From the NCBI RefSeq assembly GCF_029023725.1, contig NZ_CP119075.1:3901501-3965500 (forward strand): a stretch of DNA of 64,000 nt. The letters are read 5' to 3'. Source of the stretch: Synoicihabitans lomoniglobus. GTDB taxonomy: Bacteria; Verrucomicrobiota; Verrucomicrobiia; Opitutales; Opitutaceae. This document shows positions 50,686-61,014 of the stretch, one piece after another. Under the pieces are notes generated by a model. The model worked only from the letters and a program-made list of their open reading frames with translations. It searched no databases and had not been told where the DNA came from. Position 1 is the stretch's first letter. Every line of letters starts with the position of its first letter. Both the position numbers and the translations under genes were made by a program.

Positions 50686-51693
50686 ATGCATTCGGTTCTT
50701 ATTGTCGGTTGCGGTAGCATCGGAGAGCGCCACTTACGTTGTTTCCAAGCATCAGGTCGCGCTCGGGTAACAGCCTGCGATGCCCACCCCGCCCTGTTGG
50801 AAAAGATGAGCGATCTCTACGCGGCGGCGACCACGACCGACTTTACCGCCGCGCTGGCTGGCAACGTCGACGCTGTCGTAATTTGCACGCCCGCCCATCT
50901 GCACGTTCCCATGGCGCTCGCAGCCCTACGCGCTGGAAAACATGTGCTGATCGAGAAACCCTTGGCGGCATCGTTGGAGAACGTGGATGACTTGCTCACT
51001 GCCCACGCCGAATCGGATCGCATGGTCTCCGTCGCCTATGTGCAGCACGTGTTCCCGTTTCTAGTGAAAGCGCGCGATTTTCTGCGCAGTGGAGAACTCG
51101 GTCCGATCAAGCACGTGACCCTCACCTGCGGTCAGCATTTCCCTTCCGGTCGACCGGCTCATGCCGCGCCCTACGCCCAGACCTACTACCGGGATCGCAA
51201 GACCGGCGGCGGCGCGATCCAGGACGCGCTCACGCACATGGCCAACTGGATTGAAAGCGTGCTCGGTCCCACCGACAGCGTCTTCTGCGATTGCGCGCAT
51301 CAGGCGCTCCCCGACGTTACGGTCGAAGACACGGTGAATCTTTCCGCCCGCCACGGCGACACCCTCGTCAACTACACGCTCAACCAATTCCAGGCCCCCA
51401 ACGAAACGGCGGCTCAGTTCAATACCGCCACCGGAAGCGTGAAGGTTGAATACCACCGCCAACGTTGGGGCACGTTTCGCCTCGGTGACTCCGACTGGAC
51501 GTGGCACGCCGACGACAGCGCCGAGCGCGATGGCCATTTCACCGCGCAAGCCAATGCGTTTCTCGATCAGATTGAAGGTCAACCGTCGCGCCTGTGCTCA
51601 CTCGAAGCCGCTGCCGAAACCCTGCGCTTTAATCTCGCCGCTCTGGCCTCGGCCGAAACCGACCAACGAGTGACTTGCGCCGAAGTTCGCTGA
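50686..51693 (+). CDS. Gfo/Idh/MocA-family oxidoreductase (paralogue pair A, copy 2)
   Basis: A 335-residue paralogue of the gene at 25909-26910. Rossmann motif 'VLIVGCGSIGERHL', 'HVLIEKPLAA' with the catalytic Lys, 'TCGQHFPSGRP' and 'GGGAIQDALTHMANWIESVLGP'. ATG start clear. First gene of a plus-strand series that continues with the ferritin-like protein, another Gfo protein, an aldolase and an SDR. Confidence 0.92.
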   Translation: MHSVLIVGCGSIGERHLRCFQASGRARVTACDAHPALLEKMSDLYAAATTTDFTAALAGNVDAVVICTPAHLHVPMALAALRAGKHVLIEKPLAASLENVDDLLTAHAESDRMVSVAYVQHVFPFLVKARDFLRSGELGPIKHVTLTCGQHFPSGRPAHAAPYAQTYYRDRKTGGGAIQDALTHMANWIESVLGPTDSVFCDCAHQALPDVTVEDTVNLSARHGDTLVNYTLNQFQAPNETAAQFNTATGSVKVEYHRQRWGTFRLGDSDWTWHADDSAERDGHFTAQANAFLDQIEGQPSRLCSLEAAAETLRFNLAALASAETDQRVTCAEVR

Positions 51694-51757: not shown

Positions 51758-52963
51758 ATGTCTGCCACCATCGACATTGATGCCAATCGGACCCTGCTGA
51801 ATCGCTATCGCTTCGTGCTCCACGGAACGATGCACACCCTCGCGGGTTGGCTACCTCAATCCGCCACCTTCGAACTTAAGTGTGAACTCGGACGCGCCAT
51901 CTGGGAGTGTGCCCAACACGTCAACGCGCTCTACCTGCGGTTGCGCGAAATCCAATCCCCCGCGTTCCAACCCCCGCCCGATGAAGCGCTCGTTCACCTC
52001 ATGGCGGAACTGCCCCACGCCCCCGACGAGTTCGGCATCGCCTTGGCGTGGCAGGACGTGATCGTCCCGGATCTCATTCGCGCCCTGGAGCATCACGAAA
52101 ACGCCACGTTCCCCAACAGCGACCAGCCGAGCGTCTACGCGGCCCACCACATTCTACTCGATCTCCGAGACCAACAAAAGCGGCTGCACCTCGTGATCGA
52201 AACGGCGCGAGCCGAGGGCCGCATCAAAGCCGATGCGGAAACCTGGCGCGACTACGTGCAAGTCCTGCTCGACGCCGCGGGGGGCGTGAGCGGCAACGGC
52301 TCGCGCGCCGTGACGCCAACAAGCGCCCCGGCTTGCCGCCATGCGTTTGAAACGCCTCGCGAGGCCCGCCGCGACGAACGATTCACCCGGCCCGGCGCCG
52401 ACGAGGAATTGATGCCCGACGAAGCCGATTACGACCGACACACCGTGGAGGAGTTCGAGCGCTACTCCACCGAGATGCTGGCAGCTGAAACGGTCGCCGT
52501 CGTGATGCATTCCTTCCCCCGGATGCCATGGGGGTTTCAATTCGATTCCGCCCGGCATCTCTACGACGAAGTGCGACATTGTCTGATGGGTTTCGAGTGG
52601 ATGCGCCAACGGGGATTCGATCCCTTTAACTCGCCGCAATACCTGCACATCTTCACCTGGCGCACGCAGTTCCCACCCGTCATGCAATATTGCCTGCTCA
52701 CCATGGGTAACGAGGTGCACGCCTTTCCCTACCGGCACCGTCGCGTCGAAGAACATAAGAAAACCGGCGACGCCTTGAGCGAACAGTTCGTGCGCTACGA
52801 CATCGCCGACGAAACCCAACACGTGCGCTTCGGCAAACGCTGGTTGCCCGAAATGTTGAAGCATGTCGGCGAACCCAAATCGACCGACGACTATGTCGCC
52901 GCCACCATCAGTGTATGGGAAAATGAATACAAAACGGGTAAGCTCTCACTCAATGTCGAGTAG
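51758..52963 (+). CDS. Ferritin-like diiron-carboxylate protein of unknown function
   Basis: A 401-residue protein whose C-terminal half has a complete four-helix diiron ligand set: Glu244 ('LAAETVAV'), Glu271-x-x-His274 ('YDEVRHCLMG'), Glu319 ('MGNEVHAF') and Glu352-x-x-His355 ('ADETQHVRFG'). The N-terminal half is also helical ('CELGRAIWECAQHVNALYLRLREI') and may be a degenerate copy. Diiron proteins of this style are oxygenases, oxidases or aldehyde-deformylating enzymes. It lies 64 bases after a Gfo gene and 43 bases before another, within a sugar-oxidation series, which is an unexpected place. No specific function is recognised. Confidence 0.8.
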   Translation: MSATIDIDANRTLLNRYRFVLHGTMHTLAGWLPQSATFELKCELGRAIWECAQHVNALYLRLREIQSPAFQPPPDEALVHLMAELPHAPDEFGIALAWQDVIVPDLIRALEHHENATFPNSDQPSVYAAHHILLDLRDQQKRLHLVIETARAEGRIKADAETWRDYVQVLLDAAGGVSGNGSRAVTPTSAPACRHAFETPREARRDERFTRPGADEELMPDEADYDRHTVEEFERYSTEMLAAETVAVVMHSFPRMPWGFQFDSARHLYDEVRHCLMGFEWMRQRGFDPFNSPQYLHIFTWRTQFPPVMQYCLLTMGNEVHAFPYRHRRVEEHKKTGDALSEQFVRYDIADETQHVRFGKRWLPEMLKHVGEPKSTDDYVAATISVWENEYKTGKLSLNVE

Positions 52964-53006: not shown

Positions 53007-53975
53007 ATGGTTCCCGTCAAGCAACCCGATCAAATCCGACTCGCCATCCTCGGGTGCTCACCGGGCAACGGCCACCCGTATTCCTGGAGCGCCATTTTCA
53101 ACGGCTATGATCGCGATCTCATGACGGCTGAATGCCCCTACCCGGGCATCCCCGCCTACTTGAACCAAGAGCCGAGCGCGACCCTCACCATTCCCGGGGC
53201 TCGGGTCACCCATATCTGCTGCACCGGGGCCGGCGACTTTTCCGCCGAGCATGTGGCCCGCTGCGCGCACATCCCCCACGTGGTTGAAAAACCCACCGAT
53301 GTGATCGGCCATGTCGATGCCGTGATCATTGCCACCGACATCGGCGGCGACCACGTGGAACGCGCGCGCCCCTTCGTCGAAGCCGGTCTGCCCGTCTTTG
53401 TCGATAAGCCCCTCGCCGATAACCTGCCGGATCTGCAAACGTTCCACAACTGGGTCGAAGCCGGGCACGCCATCATGTCGTCGAGCTGCATGCGCTACGC
53501 CCGTGAGTTCCTGCCCTACCGGCAGTCCACCCAAACCCTCGGCGCGCTGCGCTTTGTCAGTATCACCACCGCAAAACGTTGGGAGACCTACGGCATCCAC
53601 GCCCTCGAAGGGATCTATCCAATCGTCGGTCCGGGCTTTGAAACCGTGCGCAACACCGGCACACCCGAACGCAACATCGTGCATCTCACCCATCGCGACA
53701 GGATCGACATTGTCGCGGTTGCCACCGCCGATCTCTACGGTGCCTTCGGCTGCCTGCAACTCGGCGGCACCACCGGCCACGCCGAAGCCGCTTTTGGCGA
53801 CACCCTGCACGCGTTCAAAGCGCAACTCGCCGCCTTCATCGACTTCCTGCGCACCGGTGAACGGCCCTTCCCTTTCGCCGAAACCGTCGAGCTGATCAAA
53901 CTCGTCATCGCCGGAAAGCTCAGCCGCGACGAAGGCGGCCGTGAGGTGCGGCTCTCCGAACTCACGCTCACCTGA
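53007..53975 (+). CDS. Gfo/Idh/MocA-family oxidoreductase (copy D, divergent)
   Basis: A 322-residue member of the superfamily with weakly conserved N-terminus ('LAILGCSPGNGHPYSW') and 'VFVDKPLADN' in place of the usual EKP. 'IIATDIGGDHVERARPFVEAG' and 'RYAREFLPYR' fit the fold. ATG 53007 is adopted; ATG 52953, inside the end of the ferritin-like gene, is an alternative. The substrate is probably unlike that of the other four Gfo proteins. Confidence 0.8.
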   Translation: MVPVKQPDQIRLAILGCSPGNGHPYSWSAIFNGYDRDLMTAECPYPGIPAYLNQEPSATLTIPGARVTHICCTGAGDFSAEHVARCAHIPHVVEKPTDVIGHVDAVIIATDIGGDHVERARPFVEAGLPVFVDKPLADNLPDLQTFHNWVEAGHAIMSSSCMRYAREFLPYRQSTQTLGALRFVSITTAKRWETYGIHALEGIYPIVGPGFETVRNTGTPERNIVHLTHRDRIDIVAVATADLYGAFGCLQLGGTTGHAEAAFGDTLHAFKAQLAAFIDFLRTGERPFPFAETVELIKLVIAGKLSRDEGGREVRLSELTLT

Positions 53976-54020: not shown

Positions 54021-54842
54021 ATGAAACTCCGACCCAGCCGCGTGCTGAAACGTCTCGCCGACGGCCAACTGCCGACGTCCCTCAAAATCAATCTCGCCGA
54101 TCCGCGCGTCATCGAAATCGCCGGACTCTGCGACGTCGATGCCGTGTGGCTCTGCCAGGAACACGTGGCCAACGACTGGATCGCGCTGGAGAATCAAATT
54201 CGCGCTGCACGCGTGCATAACATCGACTCCCTGGTGCGCGTCTCCCGCGGGAGCTACAGCGACTACATTCGGCCGTTCGAATCGGACGCCACCGGCATCA
54301 TTGTGCCCCACGTTGCCAACGCCGACGAAGCGCGAGAAATCGTGCAATGGACCCGGTTCCGCCCCATCGGCAGACGGGCTTTGGACGGAGGAAACATCGA
54401 CGGGAAATTTTGCCTCACCCCGGTCGAAGACTATCTCGAACACGCCAACACCGAGCGCCTGGTCATCTTCCAAATCGAGTCCCCCGAAGCCCTCGAACAC
54501 GTCGAAGAAATTGCCGCCGTGCCCGGTTTCAACGGGATCCTGTTCGGCCCGGGAGACTTCAGTCATTTGATCGGAAAAGTCGGCCAACTCAATGCGCCGG
54601 AAGTCGTCGCCGCGCGTCAACGCGTGGGGGCGGCTTGTCGGGCCAACGGCAAATTTGCCATGACCGCCGGGGTATTCGCTCCGCTCGAGGATTTGGTCGC
54701 AGAAGGCTATCGGGTGATCAACATTGGGGCAGACGTTGTCGCCATGTCATCCTATATCCAACAACGCCTGCACACCGTGCAGGACACCATCAGCAAGCTG
54801 CCGACCACACTCAAACCGGCCGCTCAGTCTCCCTATGTCTGA
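54021..54842 (+). CDS. HpcH/HpaI-family aldolase (pair copy 2)
   Basis: A 273-residue class II pyruvate aldolase, paralogous to 31201-31980. His48 ('CQEHVANDW'), Arg73 ('LVRVSRGS'), Glu153 ('FQIESPEA') and Asp179 ('FGPGDFS') match the active site. Its last 8 bases overlap the start of the SDR gene. The strong 'RALDGGNIDGKFCL' segment parallels 'RGLDGASLDNNFYL' in copy 1, suggesting the two act on similar substrates. Confidence 0.91.
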   Translation: MKLRPSRVLKRLADGQLPTSLKINLADPRVIEIAGLCDVDAVWLCQEHVANDWIALENQIRAARVHNIDSLVRVSRGSYSDYIRPFESDATGIIVPHVANADEAREIVQWTRFRPIGRRALDGGNIDGKFCLTPVEDYLEHANTERLVIFQIESPEALEHVEEIAAVPGFNGILFGPGDFSHLIGKVGQLNAPEVVAARQRVGAACRANGKFAMTAGVFAPLEDLVAEGYRVINIGADVVAMSSYIQQRLHTVQDTISKLPTTLKPAAQSPYV

Positions 54843-55620
54843 CGTGCCCTCATTTTCCCTGGGCGGCAAAGTCGTCGTGCAATTCGGGGGCACCGGGGTG
54901 CTCGGCCGATCACTCGTCACCGCTCTTGCCGGAGCCGGGGCCACGCTGATCGTGGCCTCCCGCAATCGCGATTCACTCGCCAGCCTGGCGACCAAGGAAC
55001 ACGAGGCGGGCCGCACCGTGCATGTCGACGAAGTCGACATTGGCTCCGAGGCGTCACTCCAAGCTCTCCGTGATCGCATCCTCGCTACCCACGGCCGCAT
55101 CGACGGCATCGTATTCAACGCCGTCAGTCGGCCGATGAAATCCTACGACGACAACCTCGCCGCTTGGCAGGCCTCCATGGACGTCAACGCCACCGGCTTC
55201 TTCGCCACCGTGCGTGCGTTTGGCGACGCCATGGTCGGACAAAAATCCGGCAGCATCGTGAACATTGCTTCGCAAATGGGCTCGATCGGCATGAATCCGT
55301 GGCTCTACGAAGAGACTCCGATGCAGATCCCGCCCGACTATTTCTTTCACAAGGGCGGCATGATCAACCTCACGCGGTATCTGGCATCCCACTACGGCTC
55401 CCACAATGTGCGCGTCAACGTCGTCTCTCCCGGTGGAATCTATAATCCCGACCAACCGCAGGCCGAAGCTTTTGTGACTCGCTACGGTAAGATGACGATG
55501 CTGGGCCGCCTGGCCCAGGCTCGCGAAATTGGCGGCAGCGTCGTGTTCCTGCTCAGCGATGCCTCCACCTACGTCACTGGCACTAACATCGCCATCGACG
55601 GAGGCTACACCGCAAAATAA
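54835..55620 (+). CDS. SDR oxidoreductase (variant, pair copy 2)
   Basis: A 261-residue paralogue of 46425-47207 with the same peculiarities: 'VVQFGGTGVLGRSL', 'FNAVSRPMKSYDDN', 'NIASQMGS' and 'DYFFHKGGMINL' (YxxxK). It overlaps the aldolase stop and closes the operon; a terminator follows. One of the two SDRs may oxidise the sugar and the other a sugar acid, or the two copies may serve related sugars. Confidence 0.92.
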   Translation: MSDVPSFSLGGKVVVQFGGTGVLGRSLVTALAGAGATLIVASRNRDSLASLATKEHEAGRTVHVDEVDIGSEASLQALRDRILATHGRIDGIVFNAVSRPMKSYDDNLAAWQASMDVNATGFFATVRAFGDAMVGQKSGSIVNIASQMGSIGMNPWLYEETPMQIPPDYFFHKGGMINLTRYLASHYGSHNVRVNVVSPGGIYNPDQPQAEAFVTRYGKMTMLGRLAQAREIGGSVVFLLSDASTYVTGTNIAIDGGYTAK

Positions 55621-55949: not shown

Positions 55950-56696
55950 ATGAAAAGCGTCAATACCGATGTAGCCTACGACTACGTGCGCCGCCGAATC
56001 TTAAGCGGAGAATACCCCCCCGGACACGCGTTGATTACCGAAGGGTTGTCCACCGCCACTGGTGTGAGCCGCACCCCCGTGCGCGACGCCCTGCGAAAGC
56101 TGGAGGCAGACGGTTTGGTGACGATCCGCGCCCACGCCGGCGCCAGCGTCAAAATCATGGACTTGAAGGAATTCAAGGAGATGTGCGATTTGCGCCTCGC
56201 GCTTGAGAGCCATGCCGCCGGACTCGCCGCGCAATATCGCAATGAGCGCGACCTGGCGGAGATGCGTCACGCCAACTCCGAGATGAAACGGCTCACTGGT
56301 GCCATCCTCAAAAAGAAGTCCGAGGAGCCCCTCATCTCAGAACTGGTGCGGGAAGATGTTCGATTCCATATCGCCATTATGACCGCGGCCCGGAACGACC
56401 TCATCAAAAAGGAAATCCTTCGCCTGCACCTTATCAATCGAGTGGTATCGGGGCAAAACGGCACCGACCGCGCCACCCAGACCAAAGCACTTCGCGACGT
56501 GCATCGCCAGGAAGTGCTGGAGAGTCATAATCAAATCCTCACCGCGATCGAAGCCGGTGATGCTGCCGGGGCCAAACAAGCCATGGAGCATCATATACAG
56601 GATATCATCGACAACCGTTTGTCGGCGATGGTGGGAGCCGAAAGCGGGCTCATTACCCACGAATTAACCGACGAAGAGTTGGTGTATTCTCCGTAG
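55950..56696 (+). CDS. GntR-family regulator, FCD subgroup
   Basis: A 248-residue regulator: winged helix at about residues 5-65 ('LSTATGVSRTPVRDALRKLEADGLVTIRAHAGA') and FCD sensor with ligand segments 'DLRLALESHAAG', 'DVRFHIAIMTAARND' and 'HNQILTAIEAGDAAGAKQAMEHHI'. FCD regulators of this type often sense sugar acids or their aldol products. The gene lies between the catabolic series and the set-2 TonB receptor, whose promoter region holds a long palindrome with a GTATAC centre that would suit it. Confidence 0.9.
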   Translation: MKSVNTDVAYDYVRRRILSGEYPPGHALITEGLSTATGVSRTPVRDALRKLEADGLVTIRAHAGASVKIMDLKEFKEMCDLRLALESHAAGLAAQYRNERDLAEMRHANSEMKRLTGAILKKKSEEPLISELVREDVRFHIAIMTAARNDLIKKEILRLHLINRVVSGQNGTDRATQTKALRDVHRQEVLESHNQILTAIEAGDAAGAKQAMEHHIQDIIDNRLSAMVGAESGLITHELTDEELVYSP

Positions 56697-59499: not shown

Positions 59500-61014
59500 A
59501 TGAAGAAGCTCCTCGCGTTCCTGCTACTACTCAATTCAGCACTCCTTGCTCAACCCCTCGAACTGGGGTCCCGACTCGAAATGTTCGTCGACCACTTTCT
59601 CATCGACGAGATGGATGGCGTCAGCCTCGAGATGCAGAAACCGCACAATGCCGGTCACGCGTTGGACTTCAATGACCCGTGGGACCGTGACGCGTCCGGC
59701 TACGCCACCGTCATCGAAGACGACGGCCTCTACCGGATGTATTATCGCGGTGGCCCGGCCGATGACTCCGCCGGAAAAGATGAAGGCTCCACCTCCTTTT
59801 TTTGCTACGCCGAAAGCCGCGACGGTATCAACTGGGTGAAACCCGAGCTCGGCCTGGTCGAGTTCGAGGGTTCGACCGCGAATAACATCCTGCTTTCCCC
59901 GTCCCCGAAGGACGACCCTTACACGCAAAGCCTCGCGCCATTCATCGATCGACGCCCCGGCGTGCCTGCCGATGAACGCTATAAAGCCATCGGCGGACAA
60001 TGGCCCCAAGGTCTCTACGTTTCAGTCTCCCCCGACGGGATACACTGGCGCAAGTGGCGCGACGAACCCGTGTTCTCCAATGGTGCTTTCGACTCACAGA
60101 ACGTCGCCTTCTGGTCCGAAAGCGAAGAATGCTACGTGCTCTATTTCCGCGTCTTCAGCGGTTGGACCAACTACGCCTCCGATCAAAAATGGAAGACCAC
60201 CGGGTTCCGCACCATCTCCCGCACCACCTCCCCCGATCTGATCAATTGGAGCGAACCGGAACGCATGAGCTTCGGTGCCACGCCACTGGAGCAACTCTAC
60301 ACCAATCACACCCACCCCTACTTCCGGGCCCCCCATCTCTATATCGCCACGCCCATGCGGTTCGTGCCCGGTCGTCGCTTTCTGAACGATGAGGAGCTCG
60401 CCGCCCAAGGCGTGGGCAAGAACTTCCTCGGGATCGTCCGTGGCACCCACAACATTCCCAATGAACTCTCCGACACCGTGCTGATGACCAGTCGGGGTGG
60501 TGCGCGCTACGATCGCTCCTTCATGGAATCCTTTGTGCGCCCCGGTCTCGACCGCGGAAATTGGGTTTCCCGCAACAGCATTCCCGCCACCGGTATCGTG
60601 CAAACCGGTCCGGCCGAAATGTCGATCTACGTCGGCCAAAACTACGTGCAACCCACCGCCCACCTCGCCCGCTACACCTTGCGGCTCGATGGCCTCGGCG
60701 CCGTCAGCGCGCCCTACGCCGGCGGTGAAATGATCACCAAACCACTGACCTTCACCGGCAATCAACTCGTGCTCAACGCCGCCACTTCGGCCGCCGGTAG
60801 CATCCGCGTCGAAATCCAAACCGCCGAGGGTAACCCCATCCCGGGATTCACCCTCGAGGAGTGCCCCATTTTTGTCGGCGACAGCTTGGAAAAGGTCGTC
60901 ACCTGGGACAACGGCGGCGACCTCAGCAAACTCGAAGGCCAGGCCGTGCGCTTACGTTTCGTGATGATGGATGCCGATCTGTTCGCCCTGCAGTTCAATC
61001 CCACCAAATCGTGA
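59500..61014 (+). CDS. Secreted beta-propeller glycosidase-like protein (set 2, first)
   Basis: A 504-residue exported protein: short signal peptide to about residue 18, then propeller blades ('GYATVIEDDGLYRMYYRGG', 'YAESRDGINWVKPELGLVEF', 'SPDGIHWRKW', 'FSNGAFDSQNVAFWSES') and the C-terminal beta-sandwich ('LVLNAATSAAGSIRVEIQ' to 'DADLFALQFNP'). 'GAFDSQN-AFW' is shared with both set-1 propellers and may be part of the active site. ATG 59500 chosen as the start of the signal peptide. Glycoside hydrolase-like; specificity unknown. Confidence 0.77.
   Translation: MKKLLAFLLLLNSALLAQPLELGSRLEMFVDHFLIDEMDGVSLEMQKPHNAGHALDFNDPWDRDASGYATVIEDDGLYRMYYRGGPADDSAGKDEGSTSFFCYAESRDGINWVKPELGLVEFEGSTANNILLSPSPKDDPYTQSLAPFIDRRPGVPADERYKAIGGQWPQGLYVSVSPDGIHWRKWRDEPVFSNGAFDSQNVAFWSESEECYVLYFRVFSGWTNYASDQKWKTTGFRTISRTTSPDLINWSEPERMSFGATPLEQLYTNHTHPYFRAPHLYIATPMRFVPGRRFLNDEELAAQGVGKNFLGIVRGTHNIPNELSDTVLMTSRGGARYDRSFMESFVRPGLDRGNWVSRNSIPATGIVQTGPAEMSIYVGQNYVQPTAHLARYTLRLDGLGAVSAPYAGGEMITKPLTFTGNQLVLNAATSAAGSIRVEIQTAEGNPIPGFTLEECPIFVGDSLEKVVTWDNGGDLSKLEGQAVRLRFVMMDADLFALQFNPTKS

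Follow-up and report, generated by a model that had tools for sequence, protein, structure and literature searches.

A DUF455-like ferritin-superfamily protein in a Gfo/Idh/MocA-aldolase-SDR operon of the Opitutaceae, a candidate oxygen-dependent dimetal enzyme

What might a ferritin-like protein contribute to a catabolic operon of the carbohydrate type? The question is raised by a stretch of 64,000 nucleotides, hereafter the window, that spans positions 3901501-3965500 of the single-contig, 5.93-Mb genome of Synoicihabitans lomoniglobus (Verrucomicrobiota, Opitutaceae). One strand of the window carries an operon in the order GfoA-FER-GfoB-HpcH/HpaI aldolase-SDR, where FER encodes the ferritin-like protein and is separated from GfoA by 64 bases (Table 1). 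A first-pass annotation of this DNA had described the FER reading frame with two Gfo dehydrogenases, an aldolase and an SDR as its neighbours, and both the reading frame and the Pfam matches agree with that description. The open frame of GfoB begins at 52863, and a codon model places its likely start near 53007; the protein has no match in the PDB at 1e-5. The top PDB chains for the aldolase are 2-dehydro-3-deoxyglucarate aldolases, with YfaU also listed. Relatives of the GntR/FCD regulator adjoin the operon in several other loci. Additionally, a 505-aa protein encoded at 59500-61014 of the window has no Pfam match at 1e-5, and its NCBIfam match to beta-1,2-mannobiose phosphorylase is weak and falls short of the cut-off. 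Its relatives adjoin many core operons, and it possibly represents an undescribed glycan-active family.

Table 1. Operon genes, helical bundles and proposed metal-site residues of FER, in window coordinates.
Feature	Position	Strand	Basis or remark
GfoA, Gfo/Idh/MocA oxidoreductase	50686..51693	+	PF01408 86.1 bits, PF22725 53.4 bits; 5' of FER in conserved operon
FER, DUF455-like ferritin-superfamily protein, candidate dimetal oxygenase/oxidase	51758..52963	+	ORF, 401 aa, ATG start
N-terminal helical bundle of FER, residues 7-173, without ligand set	51776..52276	+	AlphaFold2, VIA-align
C-terminal predicted four-helix bundle of FER, residues 225-369, with ligand set	52430..52864	+	Low-confidence helices, DUF455 match, weak profile matches
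Glu239, preferred helix-A ligand	52472..52474	+	E in 59/59 readable rows
Glu244, helix-A ligand of the first-pass annotation	52487..52489	+	Varies among paralog rows
Glu271-xx-His274, in DEVRH motif	52568..52579	+	Invariant, 59/59 readable rows
Glu319	52712..52714	+	58/59 readable rows; Gly in L007 (G115, ortholog)
Glu352-xx-His355, in DETQH motif	52811..52822	+	Invariant, 59/59 readable rows
GfoB, divergent Gfo/Idh/MocA oxidoreductase	53007..53975	+	PF01408 31.0 bits
HpcH/HpaI-type aldolase	54021..54842	+	PF03328 90.6 bits
SDR dehydrogenase	54835..55620	+	PF13561 155.7 bits; 3' of aldolase in conserved operon
GntR/FCD regulator adjoining operon	55950..56696	+	PF07729 68.8 bits, PF00392 59.0 bits

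By its profile matches, FER is a divergent DUF455-like ferritin-superfamily protein and not a member of DUF455 proper. DUF455 (PF04305) is its sole Pfam match, aligning residues 239-372 with profile positions 74-209 at 30.5 bits; the cut-off of 34.3 bits was also missed in the genome search (31.1) and with the C-terminal part (33.0). Two FER paralogs of the same genome pass the cut-off (49.2 and 48.6 bits), and 35 of 37 aligned homologs match DUF455 at E 0.01 or better. While FER resembles DUF455 over the matched residues, it possesses an extra N-terminal bundle outside the match. No match was found in NCBIfam, and a single-sequence search of the PDB gave none up to E 10. Likewise, no relative is encoded in any of 20 stretches of viral contigs, and plasmids gave no match at 1e-5.

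The AlphaFold2 model, built with three sequences, is an all-helical structure of two bundles (mean pLDDT 66, pTM 0.69), of which the N-terminal one is better predicted, with blocks mostly at pLDDT 70-90. The C-terminal helices are predicted with low confidence at residues 225-252, 258-283, 307-336 and 339-369, in an order that fits a four-helix arrangement. Folded alone, the C-terminal half reached pLDDT 54 and a best Foldseek E of 0.67, and was set aside as evidence. Foldseek found nothing at E 0.001 or better for the full model (best 0.04). VIA-align gave the N-terminal bundle a Z of about 16 to ferritin-like proteins, including the beta subunit of toluene 4-monooxygenase (T4MO; Z 16.0, rmsd 2.8, 179 aligned), a modest score given that mostly helical models obtain Z 14 without a clear relative; these rows span mainly residues 1-183 and hence are silent on the metal half. 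A profile of the N-terminal half also matched the T4MO beta subunit (E 0.005). Because the two halves match one another in a profile comparison (probability 67, E 5e-5), an internal duplication that left the ligands in the second copy only is suggested.

The best matches of the C-terminal profile are mostly diiron-type proteins, all of them weak. They include a VlmB homolog (E 0.014 over the whole chain but 0.38 for its single stretch, neither being significant), an aldehyde decarbonylase (0.065) and bacterioferritins (E 0.026-0.12), in whose alignments the middle Glu and both ExxH motifs coincide with those of FER. FER differs from the bacterioferritins in having two bundles per chain and in its catabolic operon. 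Among 34 FER members, 13 weakly touch the Pfam family EncFtn-like (best E 0.0013) and one touches AurF (E 0.011).

Conservation of the putative metal site was read from an alignment of 61 rows, comprising 25 ortholog rows and 36 paralog rows from the family and the phylum. In each site column 23 of the 25 ortholog rows are readable, as one broken copy sits in three pieces, and one paralog gene was entered twice (L068 = L083). FER carries the E / ExxH / E / ExxH set by which diiron carboxylate (ferritin-like) proteins are recognized, with Glu239 as the likelier first Glu. In combination with DExRH, this set is a usual feature of diiron carboxylate proteins that react with O2. Thirteen columns never vary, and since these include five of the six proposed ligands, counting Glu239, the ligands are conserved beyond chance. 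Invariant as well are Asp270, Arg273, Asp348, Asp351, Arg266 and Gly278, and, in the rows readable there, Arg61 and Glu64 of the N-terminal half. The Arg of the DExRH-type motif is invariant in the first motif (DEVRH) only.

The first-pass annotation had named Glu244 as the helix-A ligand, together with Glu271, His274, Glu319, Glu352 and His355. The latter five are near-invariant and stand, while Glu239 is the more likely first ligand, because it is invariant whereas Glu244 varies in the paralogs, and because the spacing from Glu239 to Glu271 (32 residues) mirrors that from Glu319 to Glu352 (33). Glu239 lies five residues before Glu244 on the same predicted helix. Glu244 is Glu in all 23 readable ortholog rows and may, with less probability, be the ligand within the orthologs; its column holds E 21, D 11, A 3 and K 1 in the 36 paralog rows and ranks 44th of 390 in conservation. 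The profile alignments point both ways: the VlmB homolog places its Glu opposite Glu239, and a gapped bacterioferritin alignment, the sole one reaching helix A, places Glu18, a metal ligand of bacterioferritin, opposite Glu244 and not Glu239. Glu244 is possibly a second-sphere residue or an extra carboxylate.

A FER homolog of some kind occurs in 112 of the 200 family genomes searched. Orthologs, defined by an identity of 60% or more, were found at 24 loci in 23 of these genomes. In a draw of 387 genomes from the phylum, 30 had a homolog at 1e-15, all distant except that of G071 and the window's own copy. A conserved association with the Gfo genes, which the reading of the first-pass annotation requires, is borne out by the orthologs: at 19 of the 24 loci FER stands directly before GfoB (identity 64% or more) on the same strand, and the core operon lies within about 9 kb at 22. 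In G107 FER is found 3' of the SDRs of a core operon, and in G065 and G154 such an operon lies on the same strand at a distance of 4-6 kb; the core operons of all three genomes carry a second type of GfoB (48-50%). No core gene was seen in the 19.5 kb fetched around FER in G162, or on the opposite side of FER in G115, where the contig stops inside the gene. GfoB is apparently split over two frames in G090, and stop codons interrupt two ortholog copies (G022:C47 and G194:C154), both from draft assemblies.

The same type of operon also occurs without FER. Among 32 loci with a GfoB of the same type (64% or more), 13 lack FER, and the FER profile found no match in any of these 13 stretches. FER is therefore optional, and the pathway does not depend on it. 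GfoA directly abuts GfoB at six of the FER-less loci (L089, L092, L093, L096, L097, L100) and lies 3' of the SDR at five (L090, L091, L094, L095, L099), while in L098 and L101 GfoA was not seen. Of the genomes with these loci, G028 alone has an ortholog at another place; in the others a FER search finds at best paralogs, with E-values of 1e-30 or weaker. In a GfoB tree of 41 rows, FER-bearing and FER-less rows are mixed, with the window and L055, both FER-bearing, placed among FER-less rows with moderate support (86/92).

A gene of the M81/MlrC family was observed near the core operon at ten loci (L055, L089, L090, L091, L093, L094, L095, L097, L099, L106). Always together with a RidA-like gene, it occurs in 8 of 13 FER-less against 1 of 15 FER-bearing stretches (Fisher p 0.004), a lead rather than a test, as stretches of unequal length are compared and the FER-less loci are related to one another. 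A class-III aminotransferase accompanies most of the M81/RidA loci. The FER-less operons may thus serve a different, nitrogen-containing substrate, with the M81 module alternating with FER.

Other clades of FER are found in other settings. The genome of S. lomoniglobus itself has five copies at five places, namely that of the window and four paralogs. In one clade, FER is accompanied at 6 of 6 loci, in six genomes (L060, L067, L071, L073, L074, L076), by a PhyH-family gene, a Gfo gene and an AraC regulator, with identities to L060 of 74-77% for PhyH, 67-74% for Gfo and 41-46% for AraC. Gfo lies within a few genes of the rest, and in L060 a sodium:solute symporter comes between. As PhyH is of the Fe/2OG type, this unit brings two candidate O2-dependent enzymes together. 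One of the paralogs of the genome (L059:7611-12420; C1:5286673-5291398) adjoins a B12-binding (corrinoid) protein and two URO-D genes, a gene set that looks like a methyltransferase system. Another (L057:4758-10091) has a second sugar-type setting, accompanied by a PfkB kinase, a protein with weak resemblance to transaldolase, Gfo and an AraC regulator. At L102-L104 the core operon has the second GfoB type, and the gene 3' of its SDR belongs to a different FER clade, as if FER had been recruited to the same pathway a second time.

Genes of the URO-D family recur around the FER group. Two core operons that lack FER (L090, L091) contain them, and they also occur next to a FER paralog in L064 and in the vicinity of both orthologs that lie outside core operons, adjacent in L044 (G162) and at 2.3 kb in L056 (G115); the window has none. 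A URO-D gene other than HemE lies within 5, 10, 15 and 30 kb of 2, 7, 9 and 10 of 43 FER places, against 0.39, 0.76, 1.11 and 2.09 expected under uniform placement, a null that is too lenient given the clustering of URO-D genes and the location of both families in catabolic islands, and the result was given no weight. This count leaves out 9 of 52 FER rows, namely five second pieces of genes counted before, one 135-aa fragment and three long frames whose matches are weak and partial. From the 71 URO-D rows, 19 were removed as presumed HemE, each being the top match of its genome. An unusual expansion was seen in G015, where nine URO-D family matches fall within 17 kb (C4:88020-105256), with ten on the contig and 25 in the genome. 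Overall, the FER group is tied in a general way to oxidative and methyl-group catabolism. Methyl chemistry for FER is hinted at indirectly, by the URO-D genes near the two orthologs outside core operons and by the URO-D and corrinoid genes near other clades, with none near the FER of the window.

Oxygen is probably at hand for these organisms, since COX1 is present in all 35 genomes tested, and hence offers no contrast between those with and without FER. Cytochrome bd was found in 8 of the 35, with no clear difference between genomes with a FER ortholog (6/23) and those without (2/12). A scan for formaldehyde and electron-transfer genes covered 82 neighbouring proteins out of 124 in range and 109 selected. 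Neither a monooxygenase reductase nor a P450 occurs among the best 25 of 85 neighbour families, and the five operon genes include no P450. Gluconate_2-dh3 was matched by 3 of the 82 neighbours. Two clusters of proteins, c16 (about 230 aa; L038:4407-5114) and c32 (about 600 aa; L039:14640-17143), recur near the operon at several loci. A GMC-type sugar dehydrogenase was considered for them and rejected, as none of the three members searched, two of c16 and one of c32, has a Pfam match at 1e-5.

Based on these observations, it is about an even call that FER is an O2-activating dimetal enzyme that carries out an accessory oxidation feeding the Gfo/aldolase/SDR route. In such a scheme, the C-terminal bundle most likely houses a pair of metal ions, probably iron, with Glu239, Glu271, His274, Glu319, Glu352 and His355 as ligands; Asp270, Arg273, Asp348 and Asp351 would surround the site, as their conservation suggests. 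The N-terminal bundle, which has no ligand set, would probably serve as a scaffold or substrate cap. The reduced metal pair would activate O2 and oxidize a carbohydrate-type substrate by hydroxylation, O-dealkylation or oxidative cleavage, and the oxidized product would enter the GfoA/GfoB-aldolase-SDR pathway. FER would thus be an entry or tailoring step that widens the range of substrates, and an accessory role is favoured because some core operons of the same kind lack it. O-demethylation is one possible sub-case of this oxidation.

The bacterial multicomponent monooxygenases, which possess two DExRH motifs, provide a comparison. As in toluene 4-monooxygenase, the first motif of FER (DEVRH) fits DExRH and the N-terminal bundle resembles the beta subunit. 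In contrast, the second motif (DETQH) breaks the two-DExRH rule, and by their Pfam matches none of the five operon genes codes for a further subunit, an effector protein, a ferredoxin or a reductase. Without a dedicated reductase in the operon, FER would have to draw electrons from a general donor or prime itself.

The same lack of an electron-transfer protein in the five-gene operon would be expected of a dimetal hydrolase, lyase or isomerase that uses the ferritin-like scaffold on a sugar-acid intermediate without O2. Such an enzyme would likewise keep its metal residues conserved and stand in this operon, and optional presence suits a side branch equally well. It is nevertheless rather unlikely, as the ligand pattern is typical of O2-reactive diiron proteins, diiron proteins are what the profile weakly matches, and a related clade adjoins a PhyH-family gene. 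The bacterioferritins among the top profile matches and the weak EncFtn-like matches would also fit iron or peroxide handling, with FER acting as a ferroxidase or rubrerythrin-like peroxidase that merely shields the operon enzymes. However, FER tracks one catabolic operon, standing directly before GfoB at most ortholog loci, the remaining clades go with different catabolic loci, the five copies of the genome lie apart, and a two-bundle build of 401 aa is unlike that of storage ferritins, so a purely protective role appears unlikely.

The top profile match invites yet another assignment, that of an N-oxygenase of the AurF/VlmB type whose substrate would be an amino acid or amino sugar from the neighbouring pathway. 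These enzymes give FER its best profile match, with a Glu opposite Glu239, but neither the VlmB nor the AurF matches are significant, and the nitrogen-type neighbours (M81, RidA and class-III aminotransferase) are found mostly at loci that lack FER, which makes this role highly improbable. A broader proposal than accessory oxidation by an O2-activating dimetal enzyme would make the DUF455-like two-bundle proteins of the Verrucomicrobiota a new class of carbohydrate enzymes that depend on oxygen, within which the FER of the window demethylates or oxidizes an O-methyl sugar (or keto-sugar) for the GfoA/GfoB-aldolase-SDR route and sister clades pair with PhyH or adjoin corrinoid and URO-D genes. 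In this full form the proposal is doubtful.

In the portions of the literature searched, the O2-dependent demethylation of a carbohydrate that was found is the oxidative O-demethylation of 6-O-methyl-D-galactose by a cytochrome P450 (PMC10033563). This is the same kind of reaction that the first-pass annotation had proposed for FER, catalyzed by a P450 and not by a ferritin-like protein. In the same portions, no function is given for DUF455, and no paper that combines 'Opitutaceae' with 'Gfo Idh MocA' was found.

In conclusion, FER is a real, conserved and optional component of its operon, with a function that is undescribed in the portions of the literature searched. If it does use O2 on sugars, a function would be provided for a DUF455-like group that is common in the family, and a ferritin-type diiron catalyst would be added to carbohydrate catabolism. 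The natural contrast within one type of operon, with 19 loci that have FER and 13 that do not, makes this directly testable by growth on candidate sugars.
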